Origin: Bacteroidales bacterium | GTDB lineage: Bacteria; Bacteroidota; Bacteroidia; Bacteroidales; UBA12170 | Direction: 5' to 3' | Assembly: GCA_021158405.1 (NCBI GenBank) | Contig: JAGGUP010000175.1 | Location: 1-41,589, forward strand | DNA: 41,589 nt | Part shown: one piece after another, positions 12,647-20,933 of the stretch | Layout: each line of letters starts with the position of its first letter | Position numbering within the stretch: position 1 is the stretch's first letter | Program-made: the position numbers and the translations under genes | Notes under the pieces: generated by a model | The model's database searches: none | What the model saw: the letters and a program-made list of their open reading frames with translations, nothing else | What the model was told of the DNA's origin: nothing

Positions 12647-13750
12647 ATGAGTAATCTTCATGAAATAATCCAACAAATATTAAACAATACCAATAGTGCT
12701 GTTGTGCTTGTTTTATTTACTTCTTTTTTTACCTCTCTCTTTTCTATACCCATAATATTACATATTTCGCGTTCAAAAAATATCTTTGATAAACCAAATG
12801 GCCGCACATCTCATTTTGAAAATACACCTACACTTGGAGGGATAGCTATTTTTGTCGGATTTGTTATTTCCATACTCTTGTTTGGAAATATAAGCTCTGA
12901 ATACGGACTTCAGTACTTAATCGCGAGTTTAATGATAGTTTTTTTTATTGGAATTAAAGATGATATTTATTTGATCTCTTTATCAAAAAAATTTATCTGG
13001 CAATTTATCATTATTTTTATTCTTATTTTTTTAGGAGATTTTCGCTTTTTAAGTTTGGGTGGTTTTTTAGGGATTTATGAAATTCCCTATTTTATTAGCG
13101 TTGTTATTAGTGCCTTTGTTTTTATCGTTCTGATCAATTGCATAAATTTAATAGATGGTGTGGATGGTTTAGCATCGGGATTGTCTATTGTTATAGCAGG
13201 AATTTTTGCTGTTTTCTTTTATAGTCACGAAAGCAGAGATAATTTACTTATCTCTATAGGTTTACTAGGTTCTTTGATTCCGTTTTTCATATACAATGTC
13301 TTTGGGAAAAAGAACAAATTATTTATGGGTGACACGGGGGCTTTAATCATTGGCGTTATAAGCGTTGTATTGGTGATTAAATTTAATGCGCTTAGCACTA
13401 AATCAATGGGTTGGTTTGAAATAACTGCAGCTCCGGCAATGAGTATAGCTATTTTCTTTATTCCTTTATATGATACTTTGCAAGTTTTTACATTTCGTAT
13501 TCTAAATAGAAAGTCTCCTTTTAGTGCGGACAAAAATCATCTTCATCATCGATTACTTCGAATGGGTTTAACACATATTCAGACCAGTCTTATTTTAATT
13601 TCATTAAATCTACTCATTATTATATGTAGTTATTTTCTTCAATTTTTAGGCGTATTCGCCTTAAGTATTTTACTTTTGTTTACGGGCTTACTTATTTCAA
13701 TGACCATTTGGCTCTTACTTCGTCGAAAAAAGAACATACAGTTGGCATAA
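12647..13750 (+). CDS. WecA/MraY-family undecaprenyl-phosphate GlcNAc-1-P transferase
   Basis: A 367-residue polytopic enzyme that moves a phospho-N-acetylhexosamine from its UDP form to undecaprenyl phosphate. Motifs in order: D-K-P-N-G-R-T-S-H (about 46-54) with T-P-T-L-G-G, the metal-binding I-K-D-D-I-Y, N-L-I-D-G-V-D-G-L-A, F-M-G-D-T-G and the C-terminal H-L-H-H-R-L-L-R-M-G loop that marks the WecA branch rather than MraY. About eleven transmembrane segments can be seen. It is a second initiating enzyme besides the monotopic one at 6700, mechanistically unrelated to it. Confidence 0.92.
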   Translation: MSNLHEIIQQILNNTNSAVVLVLFTSFFTSLFSIPIILHISRSKNIFDKPNGRTSHFENTPTLGGIAIFVGFVISILLFGNISSEYGLQYLIASLMIVFFIGIKDDIYLISLSKKFIWQFIIIFILIFLGDFRFLSLGGFLGIYEIPYFISVVISAFVFIVLINCINLIDGVDGLASGLSIVIAGIFAVFFYSHESRDNLLISIGLLGSLIPFFIYNVFGKKNKLFMGDTGALIIGVISVVLVIKFNALSTKSMGWFEITAAPAMSIAIFFIPLYDTLQVFTFRILNRKSPFSADKNHLHHRLLRMGLTHIQTSLILISLNLLIIICSYFLQFLGVFALSILLLFTGLLISMTIWLLLRRKKNIQLA

Positions 13751-13811
13751 TGAAGATATTGTATCAAAAGATAAATCATAATCAACGAAGTAATGATACT
13801 CGCAAATCCAT

Positions 13812-14198
13812 ATGATTCCATACGATAAAGTACGTCCTTTTCTTCCCTACTTATTTTGGCTGTGGTTAATCAGCATTCTGATCTTAATGGTTATTCCTAC
13901 CGGGGGAGGAGTGCATTTAAATTTTCCGGGTCGCGACAAGGTGATTCATTTTGGTCTTTTTAGCATTTTAGGTTTCTTTTATATTGCGCCTCGCTATAAA
14001 AATAAAACCCCTTTTCGTATCTCCAAAGAAAATAGGAATACTTTTATCTTGCTTCTCTTTGTGATAAGCGTTGAATTTGTTCAATTGCGTTTGCCTTATC
14101 GTTCTTTTGAGCTTTTAGACATATTGGCGAATGTGCTTGGTATTCTAAGTGGAATTATCATTGGCCGTCGATTTTTATTAAGGATTTTTGAAGACTAG
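13812..14198 (+). CDS. VanZ-like small membrane protein
   Basis: 128 residues with four hydrophobic segments: L-P-Y-L-F-W-L-W-L-I, V-I-H-F-G-L-F-S-I-L-G, F-I-L-L-L-F-V-I-S-V-E and L-A-N-V-L-G-I-L-S-G. The motifs D-K-V-I-H-F, S-V-E-F-V-Q and D-I-L-A-N-V-L-G are the VanZ-family signature. The biochemical role of most VanZ-like proteins is not known; members occur in envelope loci. It lies 61 bases after the WecA-like gene in the same direction and probably ends the polysaccharide operon. Confidence 0.85.
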   Translation: MIPYDKVRPFLPYLFWLWLISILILMVIPTGGGVHLNFPGRDKVIHFGLFSILGFFYIAPRYKNKTPFRISKENRNTFILLLFVISVEFVQLRLPYRSFELLDILANVLGILSGIIIGRRFLLRIFED

Positions 14199-14441
14199 CA
14201 AAGACTAGCAAAGTCCGGAACATCAGCACATCTCCAATAGCCTCTCACAGTCTCTCCCGAAGACTCGGGACTTCAGCTTTTTTCCTTCGCCCTCTCGTCC
14301 CTTAGACTCCCTATCTCCCTATCTCCCTCGCCATTTTCTCCCATCTCCACGTCTCATCTCTCTCCCTTTTGTAACCTTCCCCAATCTTTTGCGTCTACAA
14401 ACTAATTAAAAACGATTTACTAACCTAAAACGCAAAGAAAG
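14199..14441 (+). repeat. Pyrimidine-rich intergenic repeat tract
   Basis: The tract has a strongly C/T-biased + strand, with 'ctccctat' repeated and an opening direct repeat AAGACTAGC. The block 14249-14282 (AGTCTCTCCCGA...) is the reverse complement of 15741-15762 near the end of ftsE plus the nearby AAGCTGAAG, and TTCAGCTTTTTTCCT (14272-14286) recurs at 14832-14846. No gene is supported. Confidence 0.7.
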
Positions 14442-14765
14442 ATGGATTTATTTTCAGTTGAAGTATTAGTTCCTTTAGGATTTTTCTTATTCATTATTGT
14501 ATTGGTTTATCTTGGCCATCAAAAAAAGATACGGATGGCGCTTATTGAAAAGGGCCTTGACCCGGATACATTTAAGCAGGAAAGTCATCAACATACAGCC
14601 ACAAGAATTGGTATATTTATGACGGCAGTGGGTATTGGTGTACTTATTGCAAATGCTATTGCGGCCTTGGGATGGCTTAGCGAAGATGTAGCTTATATAT
14701 CTATGATTTTTATATTTGGAGGAGTTGCGCTCATTTCTAGTGGATTTTTTGGCAAGAAAAATTAG
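14442..14765 (+). CDS. Small DUF6249-like membrane protein
   Basis: 107 residues. TM1 is near 9-25 (L-V-P-L-G-F-F-L-F-I-I-V-L-V), then comes a cytoplasmic segment K-K-I-R-M-A-L-I-E-K-G-L-D-P-D, followed by TM2 (G-I-F-M-T-A-V-G-I-G-V-L-I-A) and TM3 (I-S-M-I-F-I-F-G-G-V-A-L-I). The 'R-x-A-L-I-E-K-G-[LM]-D-P' segment between the first two membrane helices is typical of the DUF6249-type proteins common in Bacteroidota, sometimes seen beside sigma factors; none is nearby. Function unknown. It is bounded on both sides by pyrimidine-rich repeats, which looks like an isolated transcription unit. Confidence 0.75.
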   Translation: MDLFSVEVLVPLGFFLFIIVLVYLGHQKKIRMALIEKGLDPDTFKQESHQHTATRIGIFMTAVGIGVLIANAIAALGWLSEDVAYISMIFIFGGVALISSGFFGKKN

Positions 14766-15010
14766 CATTAAGCGATACTGGAACTCTTGACTGTCTCAAG
14801 TATTCGGGAAGCAATGAACAAACAATGAGATTTCAGCTTTTTTCCTCCCGATAGCCATCGGCATCGCCTTTTTCCTCTCTCTCCTCTCACCATTCTCAAT
14901 TCTCACCTCTCACTCTCTCAGTTTCCCCTTTGCCCTTCTCGCCAGCTCGCCCTTTCCCCTAGTTCGCTTTTTCTCCTGTCTCACCTCTCACTCCAGCTTC
15001 ATCATATCAA
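14766..15010 (+). repeat. Second pyrimidine-rich intergenic repeat tract
   Basis: C/T-rich on the + strand (runs of CTCTC, TCACC, TTTCCCC), carrying the 15-base repeat TTCAGCTTTTTTCCT at 14832-14846 shared with 14272-14286. It fills most of the 277-base gap before ftsE. I find no gene in it. Confidence 0.65.
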
Positions 15011-15042
15011 AAAAAACCTCTAACTTAGCAGCTTAAAACAAC

Positions 15043-15780
15043 ATGTTTATGTCTGAAAATACGGTGGTTTCTATTCGTGATGTTGATGTTTTTCAAGGGG
15101 ATTATTTGGTGTTAAAACAAGTAAATCTTGAAGTAAACAAAGGCAATTTTTTTTATATCATTGGAAAAACGGGCAGTGGGAAAAGTAGTCTTTTAAAAAC
15201 ACTTTATGCCGATTTGCCTTTAGTTAAAGGAGAAGCTCAAGTGGTAGGTTATGATTTACAAAAACTGAAGAGAAAAGAGATTCCTTATCTCCGCAGAAAA
15301 TTAGGTATTGTCTTTCAGGAGTTTCAGCTTTTGCAAGATCGTAATATAGAAGAAAACCTGTTTTTTGTGATGAGAGCTACCGGCTGGAAAGATATGAAAG
15401 CAATGAAAGAAAAGGCACTCGAAGTACTGGGGAAAGTAGGTCTGGAAAACAAAGGCTATAAAATGCCTCATCAGGTATCGGGAGGTGAGCAACAACGTTT
15501 GGGAATTGCACGTGCACTGATAAATGATCCGGTACTTATTTTGGCGGACGAACCTACCGGAAACCTTGATCCACAATCCTCGGAAGGAATTATGAAACTG
15601 CTTTTCGATATCAGTAATAATAATTGTGCTGTTTTAATGGCAACCCACGATTATTCTCTTTTTCAAAAGTTTCCGTCAACGACTTATATTTGTGAACAAG
15701 GAAGGTTAATTGAAGGGGAAAAGCTGAAGCGAAGCGAAAGTCCCGAGTCTTCGGGAGAGACTGAGAGAAAAGGAGACTGA
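15043..15780 (+). CDS. ftsE: FtsE, cell-division ABC ATPase
   Basis: ATP-binding subunit of FtsEX, which activates peptidoglycan hydrolases at the septum through FtsX. Walker A is G-K-T-G-S-G-K-S-S (about 42-50), the Q-loop F-Q-E-F-Q-L-L, the signature V-S-G-G-E-Q-Q-R, Walker B V-L-I-L-A-D-E-P-T-G-N-L-D, and the switch His in A-T-H-D. The FtsE-type 'F-Q-x-F-x-L-L' and 'E-P-T-G-N-L-D' favour this over other MacB-like ATPases, though a lipoprotein-export ATPase is possible. No ftsX is adjacent; Bacteroidota often separate them. The last 17 residues (K-R-S-E-S-P-E-S-S-G-E-T-E-R-K-G-D) are encoded by an intergenic repeat, so the original C-terminus was probably near G-R-L-I-E-G. Confidence 0.83.
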   Translation: MFMSENTVVSIRDVDVFQGDYLVLKQVNLEVNKGNFFYIIGKTGSGKSSLLKTLYADLPLVKGEAQVVGYDLQKLKRKEIPYLRRKLGIVFQEFQLLQDRNIEENLFFVMRATGWKDMKAMKEKALEVLGKVGLENKGYKMPHQVSGGEQQRLGIARALINDPVLILADEPTGNLDPQSSEGIMKLLFDISNNNCAVLMATHDYSLFQKFPSTTYICEQGRLIEGEKLKRSESPESSGETERKGD

Positions 15781-16222
15781 GAGAAAAAGTACCCAATATT
15801 TTAAAAGGTTTAAAATGGGAATACGATCGCATAATGAATTAGAAACTTATAATTTAGCTTTTCAGGCTGCAATGAATATCTTTGAGCTCACCAAAAAAAT
15901 TCCTAATGAAGAAAAGTATTCATTAACAGATCAAATACGTAGGTCTTCAAAATCTGTTTATGCGAATTTAGCAGAAGCATTTAGAAAGCGGAAATACTCA
16001 AAATATTTTATATCCAAACTAAGCGATTGTGAATCTGAAGCTGTGGAAACTCAAGTATGGTTGCAGTTTTCATTGGAATGCAATTGTTTTGATAAAAATA
16101 AATACCAAGCCATGGTTTTAACTTATGATAAAATTTTAGGTAAACTTGTTAATATGTCTTTGCAACCCGAAAAATGGAGCTGTTAATAATCATATCATGT
16201 ATGAAACAGTTCTCTCAGTCTC
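15757..16222. repeat. Inverted 13-base repeats flanking a four-helix-bundle gene
   Basis: GAGACTGAGAGAA occurs at 15757-15769 and again at 15773-15785, and its exact reverse complement TTCTCTCAGTCTC lies at 16210-16222. The pair encloses the gene at 15815-16186 and leaves it as a roughly 450-base unit between ftsE and ppk. The left copies run into the ftsE stop codon (15778-15780). Confidence 0.7.
15815..16186 (+). CDS. Stand-alone 23S-rRNA-IVP-type four-helix-bundle protein
   Basis: 123 residues of the 23S rRNA intervening-sequence protein family (PF05635/TIGR02436). Diagnostic features are N-E-L-E-T-Y-N-L-A near the start, L-T-D-Q-I-R-R-S-S-K-S-V-Y-A-N-L-A-E-A-F in helix 2, and S-E-A-V-E-T-Q-V-W-L in helix 3. 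The fold is a small pentamer-forming bundle related to the accessory protein Avd of diversity-generating retroelements. The founding members are encoded inside rRNA genes; free-standing copies such as this one have no known function. Inverted repeats flank it, and it interrupts an otherwise ordinary chromosomal stretch. Confidence 0.9.
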   Translation: MGIRSHNELETYNLAFQAAMNIFELTKKIPNEEKYSLTDQIRRSSKSVYANLAEAFRKRKYSKYFISKLSDCESEAVETQVWLQFSLECNCFDKNKYQAMVLTYDKILGKLVNMSLQPEKWSC

Positions 16223-16298
16223 TTCGTCCCTCCATCTTTTCGTTCATCCTCTACCATATTTTTGACGACTCAACACGAATAAAACAATAAATCAGGCG

Positions 16299-18377
16299 AT
16301 GAAAAAAAACCAGATCAATCGGGAAGTAAGCTGGCTTAGCTTTAATGAGCGTGTGCTACAGGAAGCGATGGATATTTCCAATCCTGTTTTGGAACGATTA
16401 AAATACCTGGGAATTTTTTCGAACAATCGAGATGAGTTTTATCGAGTGAGAGTAGCTACGCTTAACCGCATGAAAGCCTATAAAAAGATTGATCCTGCAC
16501 AAAAAAGAGAAATTACACGCACCTTGCGGGATATTTACCAGATTGTTTCAGATCAGGAAGCACAATTTACACAAGCGTATCGGGATATATTGGATGAGCT
16601 GGCTAAAAAAAATATTTTTATCATTAATGAAAAAGAGCTTGATGATGAACAACAGCATTTTGTCGAGGATTATTTTCAACAAAATATTCGTTCTTATCTT
16701 TTTCCTTTGTTGCTCGATTCTATTACCAGTTTGACTCATTTTAAAGACAAACATATTTATCTGGCAGTAAAAATGACTTGCAGTAATAAATTGCAAAAAG
16801 ATAATTTTGCATTAATCGAACTTCCTACCGAAGAGGTGTCGCGCTTTATAGAGCTGCCTCAATTTGATGAAAAAAAGTATATCATTTTTCTGGATGATGT
16901 GATTCGGATCAATCTAAAAAGTATTTTTGGGATTTTTGGTTATGATACATTTGAAGGTCATATTATAAAATTTACACGCGATGCTGAATTGGATATTGAT
17001 AGCGATTTATCCAAAAGTTTTCTCGAGACTATGAACGAAAGCATCAAGCAACGCATAAAAGGGGATGCTGTTCGATTCGTGTATGATAAGAATGTAAATC
17101 CAAAATTCTTAAAGAAATTATTGGTTAAATTTGGAATTACGCAGAGTGACACCCTTCGAGCAGGTGGCCGTTACCATAATTTCAAGGATTTTATGGATTT
17201 CCCAATCCAGAACGATTTCGAGACAGAAAAGATTTTTGGTCAAGCCAAATCCGAGGTATGTGATGAGAGACTTCCTTTCAGTCATCCGGATATTCTTCCC
17301 AACGTAAGTATGTTCGAATTGATTAAGGAAAAAGATATTTTATTTCATTATCCCTATCATTCCTTTTCACATATCATTGATTTGGTGCGTGAAGCGGCTA
17401 TCGATCCTAAAGTGAGAGCTATAAAAATGACTTTTTATCGTGTAGCGGTAAACTCAAAGATCATCAATACACTGATTAATGCCGCTAGAAACGGAAAATT
17501 GGTAACGGTTTTTCTGGAGCTTCAGGCTCGTTTTGATGAGCAAGCCAATATTATGTGGACACAAAAACTTCAAGAAGAAGGAGTGCGTGTTATTCAAAAT
17601 ATCCCCGGATTTAAGGTGCATGCTAAATTGCTTTTAATCAGAAGAAAAGAGAAAGGAAAGAATGTTTATTATGCAAATATTAGCACCGGAAATTTTAACG
17701 AATCAACGGCCAAAGTATATGCTGATGACAGTTTATTAACAAGTGACAAAACAATTTGCAATGATGTAAACAGCGTTTTTCATCTTTTCGAATCAAAATA
17801 CCTGATGCCTTCTTTTTCCGAATTAATTGTGGCTCCGTTTAAGTTACGTACTTTTTTTACGCAGATGATGAACCGCGAAATTCGTAATGCAAAGGCGGGA
17901 AAAGAAGCTTGGGTTATTCTTAAATTGAATAATCTGGTAGATGCAAAAGTGATTAATAAACTCTATCTCGCCGGAAAAGCCGGAGTTAAAATAACGCTCA
18001 TTATTCGTGGAATTTGCGTTTTGAAAGCTGGAGAAGTGGGATTGTCGGAAAATATTGAAGCCTTTGGTGTGGTGGACCGTTTTCTGGAGCACTCTCGTGT
18101 ATTTGTTTTTGCCAATGACGGAGATCTGGATGTTTTTCTGGCCTCTGCCGATTTGATGACACGTAATCTGGATCATCGCATAGAAGTGGCTTGCCCAATA
18201 AAATCTTCCGAGCTGAAATCAGAACTGCTTGATATGCTGGAGATTCAGAGAAAAGACAATGTTAAAGCAAGATGGTTGCATCCAGATAAGATAAATCAAT
18301 ACCGATTACCCAAAGTCGGAGAACAAAGCTATCGTTCTCAAGATGAAATTTATGCTTATCTTAAGGGAAAAATTTAG
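16299..18377 (+). CDS. ppk1: Polyphosphate kinase 1
   Basis: 692 residues, the usual PPK1 length (E. coli 688). It polymerises the gamma phosphate of ATP into polyphosphate, reversibly, at the inner membrane. The N-terminus N-R-E-V-S-W-L-S-F-N-E-R-V-L-Q-E-A is family-typical. His441 in F-K-V-H-A-K-L corresponds to the phosphorylated His435 of E. coli, and His598 in L-E-H-S-R-V-F to His592. R-V-R-V-A-T-L and M-T-F-Y-R-V-A are also conserved. No ppx is adjacent. The gene appears to be monocistronic; the 112-base gap upstream contains the repeat flank of the IVP-type gene. Confidence 0.97.
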   Translation: MKKNQINREVSWLSFNERVLQEAMDISNPVLERLKYLGIFSNNRDEFYRVRVATLNRMKAYKKIDPAQKREITRTLRDIYQIVSDQEAQFTQAYRDILDELAKKNIFIINEKELDDEQQHFVEDYFQQNIRSYLFPLLLDSITSLTHFKDKHIYLAVKMTCSNKLQKDNFALIELPTEEVSRFIELPQFDEKKYIIFLDDVIRINLKSIFGIFGYDTFEGHIIKFTRDAELDIDSDLSKSFLETMNESIKQRIKGDAVRFVYDKNVNPKFLKKLLVKFGITQSDTLRAGGRYHNFKDFMDFPIQNDFETEKIFGQAKSEVCDERLPFSHPDILPNVSMFELIKEKDILFHYPYHSFSHIIDLVREAAIDPKVRAIKMTFYRVAVNSKIINTLINAARNGKLVTVFLELQARFDEQANIMWTQKLQEEGVRVIQNIPGFKVHAKLLLIRRKEKGKNVYYANISTGNFNESTAKVYADDSLLTSDKTICNDVNSVFHLFESKYLMPSFSELIVAPFKLRTFFTQMMNREIRNAKAGKEAWVILKLNNLVDAKVINKLYLAGKAGVKITLIIRGICVLKAGEVGLSENIEAFGVVDRFLEHSRVFVFANDGDLDVFLASADLMTRNLDHRIEVACPIKSSELKSELLDMLEIQRKDNVKARWLHPDKINQYRLPKVGEQSYRSQDEIYAYLKGKI

Positions 18378-18476
18378 GAATGTAAGACGAGGCTTTTAAT
18401 CCCAAATCAAGAATCATTGAAGGTGACATAGAGTTCATTAGTATACTGGCAAATTAGTACATTAAATTTAAAAATA

Positions 18477-18490
18477 GTATGCATGCATAC
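18477..18490. promoter_or_regulatory. Perfect 14-bp palindrome, candidate repressor operator
   Basis: GTATGCATGCATAC is exactly self-complementary. It lies 81 bases before the acyl-CoA dehydrogenase start, just upstream of a -7-like element at 18502-18509, so a bound dimer would cover the -33 region. Symmetric TGCATGCA-centred sites are seen for MarR- and TetR-type regulators. No such regulator is encoded in the window. Confidence 0.6.
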
Positions 18491-18501
18491 AATATTTTTC
18501 A

Positions 18502-18509
18502 TAAATTAG
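18502..18509 (+). promoter_or_regulatory. Candidate -7 element for the acyl-CoA dehydrogenase operon
   Basis: TAAATTAG differs by one base from TAnnTTTG. The -33 position would fall inside the palindrome at 18477-18490. The rest of the 194-base gap is degenerate AT-rich sequence. Confidence 0.4.
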
Positions 18510-18571
18510 CGTCCTAAATAAAAAGACATTTTCCAATTGAAAAATAAACAAAAGAACTTAAACTTAAGACC

Positions 18572-19711
18572 ATGGATTTTCAATTTACAGAAGAGCAATT
18601 AATGATTCAGCAAGCTGCTCGCGATTATGCGCAGCGCGAATTGATTAAAGACATACTCGAACGCGACGAAGGAGCTATATACCCAACAGAACATGTTAAA
18701 AATCTGGCAGAACTTGGGTTTATGGGGATGTTAGTTAGCGAAAAATGGGATGGCGGAGGAATGGATACGGTATCTTATGTATTGGCGATAGAAGAAATTT
18801 CAAAAATCGACTCCTCAGCAGCCGTGATCATGTCAGTAAATAACTCTTTGGTATGTTATGGCTTGGAAAAATTCGGTACCGATGCCCAAAGAGAAGAATA
18901 TTTACGTCCTTTGGCTCGTGGTGAGAAAATAGGTGCTTTCCTATTGTCAGAACCGGAAGCAGGCTCGGATGCTACCAAGCAAAGAACTACCGCTATAGAT
19001 AAAGGGGATTATTATCTATTGAACGGGACGAAAAACTGGATTACCAATGGTAATACAGCTTCTACCTATATAGTTATTGCTCATACGCATCCTGAAAAAG
19101 GACATCGTGGTATCAATGTTTTTATCGTGGATCGTCATGCGGAAGGAATTTCTGTTGGACCTCACGAAAATAAAATGGGTATGCGCTCTTCTGATACGCA
19201 TTCCGTGATGTTTACAGATGTAAAAGTGCCAAAAGAGAATCGCATAGGAGAAGATGGTTTTGGTTTTAAATTTGCTATGAAAACGTTAGAAGGCGGTCGC
19301 ATTGGTATTGCTTCTCAAGCACTGGGAATAGCTTCAGGAGCTTTAGAACTTGCCATTAAATACGCCAAAGAACGCAAAGCATTTGGCACAGAAATTATTA
19401 ATCATCAGGCTATCGCTTTTAAATTATCCGATATGGCTGTAAAAGTAGAAAACGCTCGTAATCTTTGTTTGAAAGCCGCTTGGTTAAAAGATCAAGGACA
19501 ACCTTATGGTACAGCAAGTGCAATGGCAAAACAATATGCAGCCGATATTGCAATGGAAGTTACAACTGAGGCAGTTCAAATTCATGGCGGCTATGGCTAT
19601 GTTAAAGAATATCATGTTGAACGCCTGATGCGTGAAGCAAAATTAACACAGATTTATGAAGGTACCTCTGAGGTGCAGAAGATTATTGTTTCCAGAAGTT
19701 TGATGAAATAA
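18572..19711 (+). CDS. Acyl-CoA dehydrogenase (short-chain, butyryl-CoA type)
   Basis: A 379-residue FAD enzyme that oxidises acyl-CoA at C2-C3, or reduces the enoyl-CoA in fermentative bacteria, exchanging electrons with Etf. The N-terminus M-D-F-Q-F-T-E-E-Q-L is typical. F-L-L-S-E-P-E-A-G-S-D-A and N-W-I-T-N-G are the FAD/substrate signature, G-G-R-I-G-I-A-S-Q-A is conserved, and the catalytic base is Glu363 in I-Y-E-G-T-S-E. Position and length fit the short-chain (Bcd/SCAD) group. etfB and etfA lie downstream, separated by an IVP-type gene. Chain-length preference cannot be assigned with certainty. Confidence 0.93.
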   Translation: MDFQFTEEQLMIQQAARDYAQRELIKDILERDEGAIYPTEHVKNLAELGFMGMLVSEKWDGGGMDTVSYVLAIEEISKIDSSAAVIMSVNNSLVCYGLEKFGTDAQREEYLRPLARGEKIGAFLLSEPEAGSDATKQRTTAIDKGDYYLLNGTKNWITNGNTASTYIVIAHTHPEKGHRGINVFIVDRHAEGISVGPHENKMGMRSSDTHSVMFTDVKVPKENRIGEDGFGFKFAMKTLEGGRIGIASQALGIASGALELAIKYAKERKAFGTEIINHQAIAFKLSDMAVKVENARNLCLKAAWLKDQGQPYGTASAMAKQYAADIAMEVTTEAVQIHGGYGYVKEYHVERLMREAKLTQIYEGTSEVQKIIVSRSLMK

Positions 19712-19742
19712 TGCGGTAAATTGATGATGTGCTGATGAGATA

Positions 19743-20111
19743 ATGAAAAAGGACGAGTTTATGAGAGAGATAGGAAATATTGTAGTTGACCTTAGTTTTG
19801 AGTTTGCTCTATCTATAATTTCATTTTCAGAACAACTCGAAGAGAAAAGAAAATTTGTGATTTCAAAGCAAATCCTTCGTTCTGGCACATCAATAGGCGC
19901 AAATATTAGGGAAGCTCAAAATGCAGAAAGTAAAGCAGATTTTATTCATAAGTTAAAAATTGCAGCTAAAGAAGCAGAAGAAGTTGAATATTGGTTGCTT
20001 TTATGTCAATTCTCTGATAATTATCCCAATACAGAATCTTTAAGAGTAAAATTAATCAGTATAAAAAAGCTTTTATCAAAAATAATTGCAACATCAAAAA
20101 AATCAAATTAG
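19743..20111 (+). CDS. Second stand-alone IVP-type four-helix-bundle protein
   Basis: 122 residues of the same family as 15815-16186, but a different branch: K-Q-I-L-R-S-G-T-S-I-G-A-N-I-R-E-A-Q (helix 2), A-E-S-K-A-D-F-I-H-K-L-K-I-A and K-E-A-E-E-V-E-Y-W-L-L-L (helix 3). This is the most common form of the family in Bacteroidota. It begins 31 bases after the acyl-CoA dehydrogenase stop and sits between that gene and etfB, which normally belong together. The sequences on both sides ('gatgatgtgctgatgag' before, 'aattagcacattagc' after) are loosely inverted versions of each other. Function unknown. Confidence 0.92.
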   Translation: MKKDEFMREIGNIVVDLSFEFALSIISFSEQLEEKRKFVISKQILRSGTSIGANIREAQNAESKADFIHKLKIAAKEAEEVEYWLLLCQFSDNYPNTESLRVKLISIKKLLSKIIATSKKSN

Positions 20112-20183
20112 CACATTAGCAAATTATCAAATTAACACATCAATTAAGACATTAAAAAATTGTAACATTAATACATTAATACA
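20112..20183. repeat. AT-rich degenerate repeat between the IVP-type gene and etfB
   Basis: Short units of the type 'attagcacatta' and 'acattaatac' recur several times over 72 bases. The reverse complement (AATTGATGTG, ATGTGCTAAT) resembles the spacer before the IVP-type gene at 19715-19740. It looks like an arm of the same inserted unit. Confidence 0.45.
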
Positions 20184-20933
20184 ATGAAAATACTAGTTTG
20201 TTTAAGTAATGTTCCCGACACCACCACTAAAATAAAACTCAGTGGCGATAAGTCTGCTGTGGATATGACCGGTGTTCAGTGGGTCATCAACCCTTGGGAC
20301 GAATTAGCACTTACACGTGCTTTGGATTTAAAAGAAAAATCCGGTGGAAAAATTGAAAAAATTACCGTAATCACTGTAGGAGAAAGTTATACGGAACCAA
20401 CTATTCGAAAAGCTTTAGCCGTTGGTGCCGATGATGCCGTTCGTATCAATATGATGCCAACCGATGATTACGAGGTGGCTTCAAATATTGCTGCTTATTT
20501 GAAAGATAATCCATACGAGATTGTGCTTTCAGGTATTGAATCGAGTGATTATAATGGTTCTGCTGTAGGTGGAATGTTGGCCGAATTTTTAAAAGTGCCA
20601 TCGGTTTCTTCTGTTTCATTTTTAGATATCGAGGGTGAAGAGCCTATTTTGAAGCGTGAGATTCCCGGCGGAACAGAAACTGTTAAAGTGCCGGTTCCCT
20701 TTGTAGCTATTGTTCAAAAAGGCATCGCATTGGATCCTCGTATTCCTGCTATGCGTGGGATTATGATGGCTCGTAAAAAACCCTTAACCGTTGTAGAACC
20801 TACCGGAGAAAGCGCCAAATCTACTTTCATTGAATTTGGAATGCCTCAACCTAAAGCAAAAGTGAAAATGATTGATCCAGAAAATGCCGGTGAACTCATT
20901 ACTTTATTGCATGAAGAAGCCAAAATTATCTAA
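20184..20933 (+). CDS. etfB: Electron transfer flavoprotein, beta subunit
   Basis: 249 residues. The N-terminal M-K-I-L-V-C-L-S-N-V-P-D-T and the internal D-Y-N-G-S-A-V-G-G-M-L-A and V-P-F-V-A-I-V-Q-K-G are the EtfB signature; AMP or a second FAD binds here. The C-terminal arm (P-Q-P-K-A-K-V-K-M) wraps around EtfA. With EtfA it carries electrons between acyl-CoA dehydrogenase and either a membrane quinone reductase or, if bifurcating, NADH and ferredoxin. etfA follows after 17 bases. The acyl-CoA dehydrogenase upstream is its natural partner. Confidence 0.95.
   Translation: MKILVCLSNVPDTTTKIKLSGDKSAVDMTGVQWVINPWDELALTRALDLKEKSGGKIEKITVITVGESYTEPTIRKALAVGADDAVRINMMPTDDYEVASNIAAYLKDNPYEIVLSGIESSDYNGSAVGGMLAEFLKVPSVSSVSFLDIEGEEPILKREIPGGTETVKVPVPFVAIVQKGIALDPRIPAMRGIMMARKKPLTVVEPTGESAKSTFIEFGMPQPKAKVKMIDPENAGELITLLHEEAKII

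Follow-up and report, generated by a model that had tools for sequence, protein, structure and literature searches.

The window, that is, the whole stretch of 41,589 nucleotides of Bacteroidales DNA analysed here, carries between ftsE and ppk1 a small free-standing gene for a four-helix-bundle protein of the family known from rRNA intervening sequences (IVS). We call this protein IVP. The gene is enclosed by short repeated words, and the coordinates of these and related features are shown in Table 1. The protein was matched by PF05635 with an E value of 1.4e-25 and 90 bits (cut-off 33.8) in the Pfam scan and by TIGR02436 with 84.1 bits (cut-off 24) in the NCBIfam scan, and it thus belongs to the family. 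PF05635 was the sole Pfam family above its cut-off, and the only other one at E <= 0.01 was bAvd (PF22296), which at 24.2 bits stayed below its threshold of 40. The score for Avd (NF033474) was 24.4 bits against a cut-off of 80. An earlier note on this DNA, made from the letters alone, had related the family to Avd of diversity-generating retroelements; a distant sequence similarity is present, but the protein does not reach the score of either Avd or bAvd.

Table 1. Positions of the IVP genes, their arms, the arrays without an IVP gene and the host genes in the window
Feature	Position	Strand	Remark
Array without IVP gene, 8-nt units (by eye), upstream of DUF6249 gene	14243..14396	-	
Array without IVP gene, 7-nt TCTCACC-type units (by eye), just upstream of ftsE	14837..15005	-	
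ftsE, host gene	15043..15780	+	best NCBIfam match FtsE, 221 bits, below cut-off 264.85
Outer 37-nt stretch overlapping left arm	15732..15768	+	inverted recurrence at 14243-14279, 92%
Left (5') arm, four degenerate 8-nt units, purine-rich, reaching into ftsE reading frame	15757..15788	+	
IVP gene (PF05635 / TIGR02436 four-helix-bundle protein, 123 aa)	15815..16186	+	ORF and profile matches
Right (3') arm, inverted degenerate 8-nt units, pyrimidine-rich on + strand	16210..16249	-	
ppk1, host gene downstream	16299..18377	+	name taken from first reading of the sequence
Left arm of second IVP gene, GATGATGTGCTGATGAG words	19710..19746	+	
Second IVP gene, different subfamily	19761..20111	+	PF05635, 87.2 bits
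Right arm of second IVP gene, CACATTAGCAAATTATCAAATTAACACATC words	20112..20153	-	

The 13-mer GAGACTGAGAGAA occurs exactly at 15757-15769 and 15773-15785 on the plus strand and at 16210-16222 on the minus strand, which confirms the description in the earlier note of a gene bracketed by 13-bp inverted repeats with two direct copies on the left. With up to two mismatches, six matches were found in the window against 0.67 expected, and none of 100 shuffles reached six. The exact inverted repeat is 14 nt long (15756-15769 / 16210-16223, with a spacer of 440 nt); that is, the first 14 nt of the right arm are the exact complement of 15756-15769. The 13-mers are themselves pieces of degenerate 8-nt arrays, the left one of which reads GAGACTGA, GAGAAAAG, GAGACTGA and GAGAAAAA in succession. 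When only the flanks of this locus are considered, the test of flank inversion gives a modest result, since 4 of 200 shuffles score at least as high. The stop codon TGA of ftsE (15778-15780) lies inside the second left copy of the 13-mer, and the last codons of ftsE are therefore encoded by the arm. The earlier note had suggested that the left arm has overwritten the end of ftsE; in the relatives the tail of FtsE differs.

The 13-mer might have been so common in the genome that flanking copies would be expected by chance. This is not the case: the core 12-mer GAGACTGAGAGA has three matches in the draft genome of 2,935,165 bases, all at this locus, and its reversed control has none. A fixed 13-bp transposon end was considered and rejected, because the orthologue at the same site in a genome of the same genus (G005) has other, still inverted words and because the genome has no further copy of the 12-mer.

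The second IVP gene of the window also has inverted flanks (0 of 200 shuffles), and its word is quite unlike that of the first locus. The word of the array at 14243..14396 resembles the IVP-arm word, and a longer 8-nt array lies in the same interval of G005. A further purine-rich 8-nt array (GTGAAAGA) is seen at 355-418 of the window, with no IVP gene found nearby. In the whole genome PF05635 detects seven IVP loci, one of which, on contig C84, is in two pieces. By eye, the loci are flanked by short words of their own, often inverted, and in the shuffle test inverted arms were found at five of the six testable loci, C84 being left out, each with its own word; the locus on contig C40 has no arms. 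None of the other IVP genes of the genome carries the 13-mer; those with inverted arms have words of their own.

The survey of the order was made by a PF05635 search of 60 genomes (the own genome and 59 relatives), 45 of which gave a match at E <= 1e-6. The sample consists of 102 places among the matches listed, mainly the higher-scoring ones, and 94 of them have 150 nt on both sides. The significance of flank inversion was calculated from dinucleotide shuffles. The flanks were inverted at 64 of the 94 IVP loci at p <= 0.05 and at 53 of them at p <= 0.005, whereas 122 other ORFs from these loci gave 11 and 4, respectively. Same-sense similarity of the flanks was weaker (25/94 IVP loci against 13/122 neighbour ORFs); at one locus (contig C3 of G039), same-sense arrays lie on both sides of the IVP gene. 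When the flanks are compared with themselves, similarity is highest at lag 7 and at multiples of it. Word arrays, scored as 42-nt windows with a self-match of 70% or more and mostly of period 7, were present in 71 of 188 flanks of IVP genes and in 14 of 180 control flanks.

For the wider search, the target was aligned with two relatives, this alignment (A1) was compared with genome contigs, and the best 80 of 527 relatives were taken. According to the record titles these belong to Bacteroidota, Cyanobacteriota, Chloroflexota, Verrucomicrobiota, Planctomycetota and others. The target-subfamily loci from these several phyla had inverted flanks in 59 of 74 cases at p <= 0.05 and in 46 at p <= 0.005, and the neighbour-ORF control, a random draw from those available, gave 12 and 5 of 150. 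No significant inversion was detected at 30 of the 94 loci of the order and at 15 of the 74 of the target subfamily. In the joint tests one locus (L143) was left out, being on the same contig as a locus of the order set (G050:C157), and two (L159 and L160) are near-identical. By eye, the nearest relatives of the target (L140-L145 and L152) mostly have words like those of the target (GAGACTGA, GGGACTAA), and many cyanobacterial loci have GGGGAGCA-like words. Eight loci on named cyanobacterial plasmids, from 22 plasmid records with an IVP match, were also analysed; at six of them the arms are inverted (0 of 200 shuffles in every case), one (L314) has same-sense arrays and one (L316) has none. 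Four of the eight plasmid genes (L315, L317, L319 and L320) are followed, after 45-172 nt, by a tyrosine recombinase/integrase gene that is read in the same direction.

In both sets together (165 loci) the arrays have a common polarity. The 61 arrays before the gene have a purine fraction above 0.6 in 43 cases and below 0.4 in 5, and for the 65 arrays after the gene the corresponding numbers are 3 and 39. The period of the arrays was 8 in 56 and 7 in 54 of 126.

Small GIY-YIG genes were taken as a control family (30 loci fetched, one on an IVP contig dropped, 29 analysed and 21 usable). They had inverted flanks at 9 of the 21 usable loci at p <= 0.05 and at 4 at p <= 0.005, so that inverted flanks per se are not unique to IVP genes, and we rejected this family as a clean control for that reason. 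Five of the nine inverted loci have duplicated tRNA pieces, the rest have hairpins or other repeats, and no word arrays were seen by eye in any of the nine. Five GIY-YIG loci (L291, L297, L301, L302 and L305) adjoin a tRNA gene and have a partial second tRNA copy on the opposite side, and in some of these a CCCGAT..ATCGGG hairpin replaces the anticodon region of the tRNA (both by eye).

The relation between arm words and protein identity was analysed on 13,049 pairs of loci from different named genera with no neighbouring protein in common; loci without a named genus were counted as separate, and cyanobacterial pairs were treated apart. Purine richness was controlled by shuffled arms and not by reverse orientation. 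The number of shared 8-mers rises with protein identity (Mantel r 0.276; 0 of 1000 permutations, with a permutation maximum of 0.059), and base composition explains part of this rise, the shuffled arms giving an r of 0.173 on average and 0.194 at most. Without cyanobacterial pairs, 5.97 8-mers were shared at 65-70% identity against 3.64 for shuffled arms (maximum 4.09; n = 225 pairs), and 11.65 at 70-80% identity against 3.95 (maximum 4.59; n = 51 pairs). Four-fold sites are saturated in these classes, with values of 0.278 and 0.275, respectively, against 0.295 in pairs below 30% identity. At 45-65% identity in the pooled sets, word sharing was no higher than that of composition-matched shuffled arms. 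Cyanobacterial pairs shared fewer words than shuffled arms at 60-70% identity and showed a clear excess above 70%, but there the silent sites are no longer saturated. In the order alone, pairs of at least 60% identity (n = 31) shared 8.74 8-mers against 4.26 (maximum 5.42), with a four-fold identity of 0.308. The comparison thus shows that arm words are co-inherited with the IVP protein at 65% identity and above. Because words are shared where four-fold sites are saturated, the arm words outlast neutral DNA, which suggests that they are under constraint; repeated homogenisation could also keep them alike.

In seven genomes of the same genus among those fetched, ftsE and ppk1 adjoin. The interval is 103-211 nt long in four of the seven (G003, G006, G007 and G010), too short for an IVP gene, and these four are therefore free of it; that of G006 contains a purine-rich stretch that could be a relic. 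In G005 the interval holds an IVP that is 76% identical to the window protein and is flanked by different words, again inverted (1 of 200 shuffles). In G004 it holds a different IVP, which is split by a GIY-YIG ORF into halves matching positions 1-46 and 49-105 of the PF05635 profile, and the arms are inverted (0 of 200 shuffles). Thus the empty site that one would look for in relatives of a mobile unit was found in four genomes, and a different, interrupted IVP in one more.

A second site, upstream of ftsE, was compared in five genomes. In G004 an IVP gene on the other strand lies there with a CTCACCT heptad arm beside ftsE; the contig ends there, so that the next gene is outside it. In the window an array of this kind (14837-15005) is present with no IVP gene, and G003, G005 and G006 have neither array nor IVP gene. 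As judged from these sequences, the site is a series of filled, arms-only and empty states.

Several side observations concern the sites and the interruptions of IVP genes. Two loci from two families of the order (G029:C130 = L136 and G040:C86 = L138) have an IVP of the same subfamily between the same neighbours (leuC and leuD, by eye) with related words. In four distant Bacteroidota (G014:C133 = L099, L149, L164 and L196) the IVP gene lies between the same two neighbouring genes, and this shared site is an old insertion or a hotspot. A small GIY-YIG ORF breaks up two IVP genes, that on C84 of the own genome (L002, L011, L014) at profile positions 35-37 and that of L023 in G004 at 46-49. Around the ORF, both genes show inverted ends of the type TTTACCC..GTCAAATAA / TTATTTGACAGGGTAAA (by eye), which suggests a nested mobile element.

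Movement of the gene together with its arms can be followed in Nostoc. The IVP proteins of two loci in two species (L200 and L203) are 97% identical, and the loci share one block of 484 nt at 96% identity, which consists of 65 nt to the left of the ORF, the ORF and 30 nt to its right. They have no neighbour protein in common and unrelated flanks, and the genes that flank L200 sit on other contigs in the genome of L203. A third genome (G073) keeps both neighbour genes of L200 with about 356 nt less between them, the intergenic DNA being too diverged for the junction to be read. Among the blocks of at least 80% identity between unrelated sites, 12 of 21 extend at least 20 nt past the ORF on both sides; when weaker and stronger pairs are pooled (728), the median block has its end within the ORF. 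The proposal that gene and flanks move as a unit agrees with these results, as L200 and L203 share only gene and arms, and also with the empty and differently filled sites described above.

Some Nostoc copies further resemble insertion sequences at their ends. We fetched 17 array loci from Nostoc 'Peltigera membranacea cyanobiont' 210A and one other genome. None of the 17 contains an IVP gene, and eight of them have both terminal repeats GGGAGCAA(C/T)GCGA, all eight being flanked by direct duplications of 8-11 bp. Nostoc sp. WHI has four contig ends with an IVP gene and the same terminal repeats, representing at least three insertion sites, and two of these ends share CTTGAGCGAT, as expected if the assembly cut one insertion. 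The IVP copy L203 is bounded by ATCGCAAC on both sides, and its left terminal repeat is decayed. That is, the eight array elements have the terminal inverted repeats and target duplication of a MITE, and L203 has them except for the decayed left end. The same terminal repeats bound Nostoc elements of 1.7-2.0 kb, four of the five fetched containing an open frame 489-534 codons long, and the two frames that were scanned match the ISKra4 transposase family at 112.1 and 116.5 bits, below its cut-off of 205. Since IVP copies share terminal repeats with ISKra4-type elements, mobilisation of the IVP modules in trans is likely in Nostoc. A general scan of 172 loci for terminal repeats with target duplications gave none that is credible outside Nostoc: its six matches were rejected by eye as repeat words or low-complexity DNA (shuffled pairing gave 0), and for this reason we claim IS-like ends for Nostoc alone. 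The idea of the earlier note that the unit is mobilised in trans is thus supported for some Nostoc copies and does not extend to the window locus, where no terminal inverted repeats with target duplication were found.

The predicted RNA fold of the window element has an energy of -121.1 kcal/mol, compared with -104.0 (sd 5.1) for shuffles (z -3.34; 0 of 100 shuffles). In the minimum-energy structure 15733-15785 is paired with 16210-16244 by 30 left-right pairs and the ORF lies in the loop; by eye, the arms are also paired in the centroid. In this prediction the locus has the complementary termini enclosing an ORF in a stem-loop that characterise an IVS. At least 15 left-right pairs were predicted at 147 of 165 loci with their true right flanks and at 100 of 165 with exchanged right flanks. 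Exchanged flanks still pair because the polarity is common to all arms, and in these predictions the pairing of the arms is partly generic.

Comparison of the loci shows that they have inverted word arms with a polarity and a period, that sites differ between genomes in what they hold, and that one block of gene and arms occurs at unrelated sites. We think it probable that the window locus is a free-standing, IVS-like selfish module outside rRNA, which consists of an IVP gene and inverted arrays of a 7- or 8-nt word. Such a module would be about 450-500 nt long, with the gene enclosed by the two inverted arrays; by the comparison, its gene and arms are inherited and moved together. In the transcript, the arms are predicted to form a stem whose loop contains the IVP coding sequence. 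This would allow the module to lie within an operon, as between ftsE and ppk1, and RNase III may excise it, as we infer from the analogy with the rRNA IVS. The IVP, whose Xanthomonas relative is reported to be a pentamer (available part of PMC4990558), most likely binds its own word array, as RNA stem or as DNA, since conservation of the word goes with that of the protein subfamily. Transposition could be supplied in trans, in Nostoc probably by an ISKra4-type transposase, and the arms may stay after loss of the gene, as probably at 14837-15005.

The arrays could instead be ordinary intergenic short repeats of the host, in or beside which IVP genes merely insert as a safe site. Arrays without IVP genes in the window, G005 and Nostoc agree with this explanation, as do the arrays in 12 of 96 control downstream flanks and the many unrelated-site pairs in which the homologous block ends inside the ORF. 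However, insertion into one array predicts same-sense flanks, and 64 of 94 are inverted; moreover, the words track the protein subfamily across genera, the arms are included in 12 of the 21 well-conserved blocks at unrelated sites, and G003, G005 and G006 lack both array and IVP gene upstream of ftsE. We therefore regard this explanation as unlikely. We give a similarly low probability to the idea that the module is mere cargo of insertion sequences, that is, an IS-derived miniature element whose arms and IVP gene have no function of their own. The ISKra4-type terminal repeats and target duplications of some Nostoc copies favour it, and versions without IVP transpose there too, but no such ends were found in other lineages in the 172-locus scan, while the same kind of gene, of arm polarity and of period recurs across phyla, the words are conserved with the protein beyond saturation of silent sites, and the rRNA IVS of Coxiella has, as far as it is described in the available part of its report, a similar architecture.

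It is also conceivable that the arms act in RNA only, as processing or stability elements of a small mRNA within the operon, without any mobility. This would explain the predicted stem and agrees with the cutting of rRNA IVS by RNase III that is described in the available part of PMC4990558, but the site polymorphism within the genus and the gene-plus-arm block at unrelated sites speak against it, and we consider it very improbable.

The selfish module may have a wider meaning. As a tentative generalisation, to which we give somewhat less than even chances, IVPs would be the word-specific partners of cross-phylum selfish elements with inverted 7/8-nt arrays, each subfamily having its own word; arrays without a gene would be relics or dependants, and the rRNA IVS that code for IVP would be the subset that landed in rRNA helices. 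The STRRs of cyanobacteria are further 7-nt tandem arrays. If the generalisation is true, cyanobacterial heptamer arrays, and perhaps the GGGAATC arrays of Xanthomonas, are footprints of IVP elements. IVP modules may also explain the origin of many bacterial 7/8-nt arrays. PF05635 gains a first functional hypothesis, namely, binding of the cognate array, and the free-standing copies with inverted word arrays in many phyla make function and origin of the IVS directly testable.

Among known systems, the REP/RAYT and REPIN elements likewise join the members of a protein family to short repeats that match them and lie in intergenic DNA as inverted pairs, and they have versions without a gene. RAYTs are Y1 HUH transposases. 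The IVP with its inverted word arrays would work in a like manner, but differs in the protein, since the Pfam scan of the IVP gave only the IVP family and the sub-cut-off bAvd match and no Y1 HUH transposase. BrickBuilt, a miniature element with a minisatellite in Porphyromonas gingivalis, which is also a member of Bacteroidota, likewise has a tandem repeat inside inverted ends, but its repeat is 23 nt long and the abstract names no IVP-type gene (PMC4596501). The transposon IVS in the 23S rRNA of Nostoc PCC 7120 and Deinococcus are, in the part of PMC2672173 available, inserts with inverted repeats, some of them multicopy, but they hold transposase genes (COG3547, COG3335) instead of an IVP gene; the words 'heptamer' and 'tandem' do not occur in the text of PMC2672173.

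Published heptamer arrays resemble the arms in being 7-nt tandem, mostly intergenic and, in Xanthomonas, often in inverted pairs (PMC4692102 and PMC4679880, as far as available). The first of these papers describes GGGGA(C/T)T in Nostoc and GGGAATC in Xanthomonas with 70-75 inverted pairs, and the second TAACTGA in Beggiatoaceae, cyanobacteria and five Bacteroidetes. Neither connects them with IVP by the words 'four helix', 'S23' or 'intervening', which have no occurrence in the two texts, and 'xcc0516' has none in PMC4692102. For one IVP of Xanthomonas campestris, XCC0516, the structure has been solved (2GSC), as it has for a second relative (2RLD). A query with the Xanthomonas array gave no match in plasmids under low-complexity filtering.

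In the available open-licence PMC texts, the one published link between an IVP gene and word arrays that we found is the heptamers of the Coxiella IVS. The available part of PMC4990558 describes the 23S IVS of Coxiella burnetii as 428 nt long with a terminal stem of 28 bp and tandem heptamers GACAGAT directly before the IVP ORF, their copy number varying among strains. It holds expression of the S23p protein in vivo to be improbable, describes what rRNA IVS do and where they come from as unclear, and cites hypotheses of 1990 and 1993 in which IVS are transposition remnants or mobile elements with an ORF that serves mobility. The window locus was not classed as a 23S IVS, because it lies outside rRNA, between ftsE and ppk1 and with no Rfam match in 13500-20500, although it appears to work like one. 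Thus, as far as that source describes the Coxiella IVS, the two are alike in having an IVP ORF within complementary, stem-forming arms and, in Coxiella, heptamer repeats before the gene, whereas the module of the window sits between protein genes and the arms of such modules are often whole arrays of a subfamily-specific word.
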